Assembly (NCBI RefSeq): GCF_003054245.1
Contig: NZ_QBKR01000002.1
Coordinates: forward strand, 124,001-188,000
DNA: 64,000 nt
From: Melghirimyces profundicolus
GTDB taxonomy: Bacteria; Bacillota; Bacilli; Thermoactinomycetales; DSM-45169
Reading direction: 5' to 3'
The stretch's first letter is position 1, and every line of letters starts with the position of its first letter. The notes under the pieces are model-generated. The model ran no database searches and had not been told where the DNA came from. It saw nothing but the letters and a program-made list of their open reading frames with translations. Positions 22,501 through 23,436 of this stretch are shown piece by piece. Both the position numbers and the translations under genes were made by a program.

Positions 22501-23436
22501 TTACACCGAAGATTTCAACACCTTCAGTGTTTTCTCTACCGCTCGGGAGGATTTTTCCAAAGCTATTTGTTCGTCGGAAGTCAAGGGGATCTCAATTACC
22601 TTTTCCACCCCGTTTTCTCCGATGATGGCAGGAACTCCGAAATAGAGTCCGGAAATTCCATATTCTCCTTCCAGGTATACCGCGGTCGGCATGATCCGTT
22701 TCTTGTCCTTCAAGACAGCCTCCACCATCTTCGCGGTCGATGCTGCCGGAGCAAAATAAGCGCTCCCCTTCTTCAACAGGTTGACGATTTCCGCGCCTCC
22801 CTTCCGGGTTCGCTCGACAATCCGGTCGATTTGTTCCCGGCTCATGAGCATTTCGATCGGAATGTTACCGGCGTACGAGAAACGAACCAAGGGAACCATG
22901 TCATCCCCGTGCCCGCCCAGGACAAACGCGCTGACATCCTCCACGGATACCCCGAGTTCCATGGCGATAAAAGTGCGGAAGCGTGCGGAATCAAGAACCC
23001 CCGACTGCCCGAAGACACGATTTTTCGGTAATCCGCTCGCTTCAAGGGCTACATTGCACATTACGTCCAATGGATTGCTGACAATGATGAAGATGGCATC
23101 GGGTGCGTATTTTACCGCTTCCCGTGTCACGTTCTCCACGATTTTGGCATTGGTTTTGACGAGGTCATCCCGGCTCATCCCCGGTTTGCGGGCGATCCCC
23201 GCCGTCACCACCACCACGTCGGCTCCGTCAATCTCCCGGTAATCGTTGGAGCCGGTCACCATACAGTCAAACCCTTCCACCGGAGACGCCTCCAGGAGGT
23301 CGAGGGCTTTACCGCCTGGCATCCCCTCCTCAACGTCAATCAACACCACATCCCCCAGTTCTTTACTTACCAACCAGTGGGCCGTCGTCGCCCCCACATT
23401 GCCTGCACCGATAATGGCGATCTTTTTTCTTCCCAT
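22501..23436 (-). CDS. Malate dehydrogenase located in the microcompartment operon
   Basis: 311 aa. NAD motif [15 protein letters not shown], substrate Arg in [15 protein letters not shown] (the Arg of malate dehydrogenases rather than the Gln of lactate dehydrogenases), NPLDVM, and catalytic His in [11 protein letters not shown]. Complete and well conserved, RBS GAGGAGG. It sits between a BMC-H gene and eutS with short gaps, so it is transcribed with the shell genes. No alcohol dehydrogenase (EutG) is present in the operon; this enzyme could regenerate NAD+ used by the acetaldehyde dehydrogenase (inference). No encapsulation peptide is visible at either end. It may be a second mdh copy of the genome. 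Confidence 0.9.

Follow-up and report, generated by a model that had tools for sequence, protein, structure and literature searches.

In metabolosomes, an aldehyde dehydrogenase (AldDH) generates NADH inside the protein shell and an alcohol dehydrogenase re-oxidizes it, according to PMC4207490 and PMC8217296. Among EUT2 ethanolamine loci, EutG is encoded by EUT2A only, and nearly half are without a complete core (Axen 2014, PMC4207490). In the PVM compartments of Planctomycetes and Verrucomicrobia, a gene of the lactate/malate dehydrogenase family is the locus's sole visible NAD+ regenerator (PMC4207490). An earlier note on this DNA, which had named EutG as the recycler of known compartments, was therefore too strong on both counts as judged by Axen 2014. 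Malate dehydrogenase (MDH) is named only for PVM and MIC1 in the main text of that paper (PMC4207490), and the word malate is absent from the main text of Sutter 2021 (PMC8217296). Among the literature matches listed, at the level of titles and the starts of abstracts, none describes MDH in eut loci; two papers name both MDH and ethanolamine, with MDHs that lie outside the eut genes in the parts available (PMC4149025; PMC3306737). How NAD+ is regenerated in metabolosomes that lack an alcohol dehydrogenase has been left open.

The ethanolamine operon and its malate dehydrogenase

The window, which is the whole 64-kb stretch of Melghirimyces profundicolus DNA that was analyzed, contains an ethanolamine microcompartment operon of 17 genes on one strand, running from eutB (36501) to an EutS-like shell gene (22130) with a largest gap of 189 bp (Table 1). 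The final gene we take to be EutS by gene content, and the response regulator and sensor kinase are presumably EutV and EutW, judging by gene order.

Table 1. Genes of the ethanolamine microcompartment operon, in order of position within the window
Feature	Coordinates	Strand	Basis
EutS-like BMC shell protein, final operon gene	22130..22471	-	PF00936 40.6 bits
mdh, NAD-type malate dehydrogenase	22501..23436	-	TIGR01763 497 bits, residues, structure matches
BMC-H shell protein immediately 5' of mdh	23449..23727	-	PF00936 94.5 bits
EutN-type BMC-P pentamer	23724..24038	-	PF03319 100 bits
orf237, no assigned function, EP-like N-terminus	24022..24735	-	PDU_like match under cut-off; N-terminus resembles EutE C-terminus
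PduL-type phosphotransacylase, EP-like N-terminal stretch	24717..25460	-	PF06130 258 bits; NF011652 271 bits
Main shell hexamer (BMC-H) with KVHVGGG in its pore loop	25551..25841	-	PF00936 97 bits
EutE acylating acetaldehyde dehydrogenase (NADH-producing), C-terminal EP-like helix	25896..27392	-	TIGR02518 634 bits, cut-off 620
BMC-H, long C-terminal tail	27393..27959	-	PF00936 78 bits
EutL shell trimer	27960..28613	-	TIGR04502 351 bits, cut-off 300
EutA reactivating factor	28803..30359	-	PF06277 542 bits
ANTAR-domain response regulator (EutV type)	30356..30979	-	PF00072 87 bits, PF03861 63 bits
EutP/PduV-type small GTPase	31079..31510	-	PF10662 123 bits
PdtaS-like sensor histidine kinase (EutW type)	31545..32963	-	PF12282 127 bits, PF07568 83 bits
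EutH ethanolamine transporter	32990..34231	-	NF011668 696 bits, cut-off 575
EutC, ethanolamine ammonia-lyase small subunit, EP-like N-terminus	34253..35131	-	NF003971 290 bits, cut-off 230
EutB, ethanolamine ammonia-lyase large subunit	35128..36501	-	NF011649 649 bits, cut-off 554

The gene content is that of an EUT2 metabolosome (Axen 2014; Sutter 2021). EutBC are accompanied by EutA, a PduL-type phosphotransacylase (PTAC) stands in for EutD, a histidine kinase with an ANTAR response regulator stands in for EutR, and EutE has an EP-like helix at its C-terminus; the shell is represented by several BMC-H proteins, EutL (BMC-T), and EutN (BMC-P). The operon differs from the described EUT2 type in that EutG, which belongs to EUT2A and to the canonical metabolosome core, is missing from the window, whereas MDH is present. 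Neither EutT nor EutQ, whose absence is a trait of EUT2C, was identified among the 17 operon genes by general family searches. PVM loci carry as their signature a class II aldolase for fucose and rhamnose, whereas the signature enzyme here is the ethanolamine ammonia-lyase EutBC, and family searches of the 17 genes gave no match to the aldolase. By eye, the C-terminal tail of the BMC-H protein at 27393-27959 resembles a small nucleic-acid-binding (SAP/Rho-N-like) domain, and Pfam recognizes the BMC domain only. The orf237 gene sits between PduL and EutN, and a similarly placed protein occurs in most eut loci. Downstream of the operon, window positions 9742-20924 hold an aromatic-degradation-like cluster, apparently without relation to ethanolamine, with an FAA hydrolase, an FAD monooxygenase, a cupin (gentisate dioxygenase by eye), a CoA ligase, and IclR regulators.

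The mdh gene begins with ATG and encodes a complete NAD-type enzyme of 311 amino acids. It exceeds the cut-off of 352 bits for the TIGR01763 "malate dehydrogenase" equivalog by far (497 bits) and scores under the cut-offs of the two L-lactate dehydrogenase models that match it. Both Ldh_1_N and Ldh_1_C of Pfam match, and the closest solved structures carry the name malate dehydrogenase. In the alignment, the protein has D168, R171, H195, R102, R109, and N140 together with the Asp after beta-2, and position 102 is R as opposed to Q in a lactate-dehydrogenase-like comparison row; under this numbering, we take D168, R171, and H195 to be catalytic and R102 to be of the MDH type. R102, R109, D168, R171, and H195 are dicarboxylate-binding residues. 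In the window protein's own numbering, D149, R152, H176, R83, and R89 are kept in 33/33 eut MDHs, and the catalytic and oxaloacetate-selecting residues are intact in all 37 BMC MDHs (33/33 eut and 4/4 from other BMC loci). A BMC-H gene lies 12 bp 5' of mdh and the EutS-like BMC gene 29 bp 3', all on the same strand, so that the earlier description of a genuine MDH between shell genes is borne out by score, residues, and spacing alike.

Alcohol dehydrogenases and a second mdh in the genome

No EutG-like iron-dependent alcohol dehydrogenase (Fe-ADH) was found among the window's open reading frames of at least 100 amino acids, in a phmmer search that was directed at EutG-like Fe-ADHs, started from a single EutG sequence, and admitted E values up to 10. 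The genome as a whole has five matches to the Fe-ADH family PF00465, three strong and two weak, all on contigs other than that of the window. The claim that no adh is present thus holds for the operon and fails for the genome.

A second mdh lies on contig 4 next to an isocitrate-dehydrogenase-like reading frame and a response-regulator reading frame, and its product is 60% identical to the operon MDH. We take this order to be that of a housekeeping mdh, the neighbors being named from their sequences. The operon mdh is therefore an extra copy, and the possibility raised by the earlier note that it might be the only, housekeeping mdh of the genome proved false.

Linkage of malate dehydrogenase to ethanolamine loci

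EutL was found above its cut-off in 0/9 other genomes of the family and 0/41 other genomes of the order searched, so that the near relatives offer no comparable operon and were dropped as a test of conservation; from the same absence, the eut locus was probably acquired. One member of the order (G036) has a weak PduB-like match at a locus with an EutG-like Fe-ADH, and a lactate-dehydrogenase-like match about 30 kb away on the same contig. The sample of the class Bacilli comprised 398 genomes, of which 56 have EutL above the cut-off at a total of 60 places, and all 60 loci, the window's own and 59 others, were examined; G036 (weak) and G119 (partial, at a contig end, and under the cut-off) stand outside this count.

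MDH is found at 33 of the 60 class loci, EutG-type Fe-ADH at 11, both at 0, and neither at 16, and this exclusion gives a Fisher p of 3.8e-5 in a test that ignores kinship. All 11 EutG-type genes are Fe-ADHs by Pfam, and the EutG query returned no further Fe-ADH from the sequence retrieved around the 60 loci, which extends up to 20 kb on either side of EutL; at loci that run to contig ends (e.g., G062, G150, G160, G187, and G348_C29), an EutG could be missed. The absence of a second MDH is supported by whole-genome searches. Loci with MDH are spread over 11 genera in 8 families. Those with EutG come from two genera only, one of which is without any close MDH homolog. On the question of whether eut operons of relatives lack the gene, then, the family and order hold no comparable operon, and the class has MDH at more than half of its EutL loci.

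In the 33 loci, mdh is preceded 14 times by a BMC-H gene, 17 times by EutC, and twice by a permease, and the same-strand gap upstream of mdh is at most 57 bp in 29 of the 33, which makes co-transcription likely. PduL accompanies EutL at 32/33 MDH loci vs. 9/16 loci with neither enzyme. Fifteen of the 16 genomes with neither have a single MDH-level match, and the sixteenth (G150) has a second one in another BMC locus. Visual inspection of the recurring gene clusters, some of which were also searched by family, revealed no other gene of the TCA or glyoxylate cycle. In other classes of the phylum, MDH was found within 20 kb of EutL in 0/28 EutL-bearing genomes, a count from which contig breaks could hide some cases (one genome, G629, has MDH at a contig end); with E 1e-10 as the limit, 17 of the 28 give no MDH match, and an EutG-like gene lies within 15 kb in 4.

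A short-peptide-pattern scan with MDH returned 31 loci, 25 without BMC genes and 6 with them, the latter being five Sporosarcina loci and one of Virgibacillus oceani, the last of which is apparently of the second compartment type described below. Sporosarcina ureae DSM 2281 shows the arrangement at locus L216. At the eut loci of one family (f17; G052, G104, G140, G160, G190, G209, and G150), no PduL or MDH was seen, and a second EutB-EutC pair lies 3' of the shell genes. In G356, a remnant of EutL interrupted by stop codons (G356:C16:172276-172714) precedes the intact EutL by about 3.5 kb. The top identity to the window MDH in these searches, 68%, belongs to an MDH from an EutL-bearing genome of another class (G574:C11:75112-76032), on a contig other than that of EutL.

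Origins of the compartment enzymes

A maximum-likelihood tree was built from 67 rows, in which the chromosomal MDHs are a subset of those matched. Relative to a first tree of 81 rows, 28 rows were dropped, of which 13 came from eut loci and 15 were chromosomal, and 14 of the 31 scan loci were added. Most of the dropped rows were near-duplicates, and the lactate-dehydrogenase-like L202 was among them. Four MDHs labeled as chromosomal in the first tree were found to lie in BMC loci and were labeled accordingly in the second.

The MDHs of the window and of G080 are separated from those of Bacilli by a 100/100 split and group with sequences from elsewhere in Bacillota and from other phyla, and their own pairing is weak (89/66). 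A second clade contains 16 rows, all BMC-linked (96/87), and a third contains six rows nested among the chromosomal MDHs of their own family (99/95). Joining the window/G080 group with the 16-row clade under a single origin was rejected by the AU test (p-AU 0.0003), as was joining the 16-row clade with all 7 linked MDHs of the third clade's family (p-AU 4e-7). The starred branches force at least three changes of label, in counts that cannot separate gain from loss, and the tree has long branches (G080 and the window). By these sequences, the BMC-linked MDHs are of at least three origins, and G123 may represent a fourth. Genes of the window group and of the 16-row clade both follow EutN and BMC-H, and those of the third clade follow EutC. 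Because the first two share their place, replacement of an earlier mdh in situ is as possible as separate insertion. We read the tree to mean that the same type of organelle has repeatedly captured the same enzyme activity.

A second compartment type with malate dehydrogenase

Four MDHs of the 16-row clade (loci L234-L241, in G150, G222, G318, and G214) belong to another type of EutE/PduL microcompartment. By Pfam, all four loci encode a class-III aminotransferase and an APH-type kinase, and two of the kinases weakly match choline/ethanolamine kinase. PduL and shell genes are also present, as is a permease in the two loci tested for it, and the EutE-like AldDH of the one locus tested scores 635 bits with TIGR02518 (cut-off 620). 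EutABC and EutG-like genes are absent from the four loci. A DeoR-like regulator was seen by eye in three of the four. Kinase and phospho-lyase would together make an aldehyde without B12, possibly for B12-independent use of an aminoalcohol. These loci are similar to the RMM loci of Actinobacteria, which have a phosphotransferase, an aminotransferase, and a permease (PMC4207490), set against the kinase, aminotransferase, permease, and EutE-like AldDH seen here. However, the second-type loci have PduL and MDH, whereas no NAD+ or CoA regenerator is reported for RMM in the account of Axen 2014. The presence of MDH in a second EutE/PduL type indicates that MDH tracks the AldDH/PduL core rather than ethanolamine ammonia-lyase.

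Encapsulation signals and shell pores

The MDH has no terminal extension relative to chromosomal MDHs and no terminus resembling an encapsulation peptide (EP). EP-like termini occur in EutE, PduL, EutC, and orf237, and their scores in matches to one another are only modestly above the maxima of shuffled sequences. The EutG proteins of the class, as judged by eye, have a plain Fe-ADH-like start without an N-terminal extension. Since EutG is likewise without such an extension, the missing EP on MDH cuts less deep and does not separate the two enzymes.

The pore loop of the main hexamer (the first BMC-H after EutE) reads KVH in 33/33 MDH loci and in 15/16 loci with neither enzyme. Taken together, all 49 loci without EutG have KVH or KVQ, and the 11 EutG loci have KEQ (10) or KQQ (1). 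Co-evolution of the pore motif with MDH was considered and dropped, as the motif splits EutG loci from all others, those with neither enzyme included, and thus follows the shell lineage and not MDH. The difference in the pore loop is a lead on pore charge that is confounded by lineage.

A proposed malate/oxaloacetate shuttle and its alternatives

We lean toward the view that the operon MDH is a dedicated redox component of the ethanolamine microcompartment, replacing EutG as the recycler of NAD+. EutBC would make acetaldehyde inside the shell, and EutE would convert it to acetyl-CoA with reduction of NAD+ to NADH, while PduL would recycle CoA. MDH would then convert oxaloacetate and NADH to malate and NAD+, sparing half of the acetaldehyde from becoming ethanol. 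Malate would exit through the shell pores to be re-oxidized by the housekeeping MDH in the cytosol, and oxaloacetate would come back, so that the pair would shuttle electrons across the protein shell. The sequence data establish the genes, their linkage, the lack of any locus shared with EutG, the repeated capture, and the intact active sites; the lumenal location of MDH, the direction of its reaction, and the ability of C4 acids to cross the shell we infer. Mqo, another candidate for the re-oxidation of malate, was ruled out, as the genome has no match to it. Oxaloacetate reduction is strongly favorable, and oxaloacetate is usually scarce in cells. The carbon saved from ethanol would suit respiring bacteria. 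In yeast peroxisomes, Mdh3p works in a comparable way, in that an MDH in the organelle re-oxidizes NADH and the electrons leave as malate (PMC5605654); the peroxisome, however, is a eukaryotic membrane organelle unrelated to the shell considered here, for which the function is proposed from genes.

Recycling of NAD+ by oxaloacetate reduction, as the earlier note had suggested, is favored by the repeated capture of MDH and by the clade that it shares with the second EutE/PduL type, and is weakened by the missing EP and by the 16/60 loci with neither enzyme. The replacement of EutG in particular is further weakened by the restriction of EutG to two genera, the 0/28 linkage outside the class, the scarcity of oxaloacetate, the absence of Mqo, and the three strong Fe-ADH matches elsewhere in the genome, which could serve instead.

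The best-surviving alternative, which we regard as unlikely though deserving of serious attention, is that MDH is cytosolic, oxidizes malate to oxaloacetate, and boosts the TCA or glyoxylate cycle during growth on ethanolamine-derived acetyl-CoA, with its place in the operon serving co-induction only. Growth on C2 compounds demands a high MDH flux, and the lack of an EP would be expected of a cytosolic enzyme; the 0/28 linkage in other classes, where 17 genomes have no MDH match at E 1e-10, also speaks for it. However, no other gene of C2 assimilation was recognized by eye among the recurring genes of these loci, and MDH adjoins shell genes or directly follows EutABC while being missing from every EutG locus. 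The recurrence of the same MDH clade in the second compartment type is a further argument against a purely cytosolic role.

It is improbable that mdh is a hitchhiker in an operon whose cofactor recycling is either unneeded or carried out by an unlinked alcohol dehydrogenase. Recycling is possibly not absolutely required, as put in Axen 2014 (PMC4207490), and such a reading would be in keeping with the 16/60 loci that have neither enzyme and with the five Fe-ADH-family matches elsewhere in the genome, yet it is hard to reconcile with the repeated capture of the same activity at two positions and with the intact active sites. Least probable of all is an MDH-fold enzyme acting in the lumen on another 2-oxo acid or an aldehyde, as proposed for PVM, whose core alcohol dehydrogenase (AlcDH) is predicted to be a gene of the lactate/malate dehydrogenase family (PMC4207490), for R102, R109, D168, R171, and H195 are kept in 33/33 eut MDHs and the MDH equivalog cut-off is far exceeded.

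Returning to MDH as the NAD+ recycler, a wider proposal can be made more tentatively, as one that stands somewhat short of an even chance in our estimation. A malate/oxaloacetate shuttle would have evolved at least three times for a protein-shelled organelle, with MDH exporting the electrons of EutE as malate. The same module would operate in a second, B12-independent aminoalcohol compartment, and these Bacilli would keep all ethanolamine carbon as acetyl-CoA.

Significance

As an enzyme that has been captured repeatedly and never shares a locus with EutG, MDH is a concrete candidate in Bacilli for the NAD+ recycler of metabolosomes without an alcohol dehydrogenase. Reading MDH in this way makes the idea of a private NAD+ pool testable and implies that shells pass C4-dicarboxylates. 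For engineered shells, MDH would offer a redox module by which no carbon is wasted as ethanol. Many Bacillus-type bacteria have an extra mdh in the EutG-free gene cluster of their ethanolamine organelle, and the organelle may dispose of its electrons as malate.
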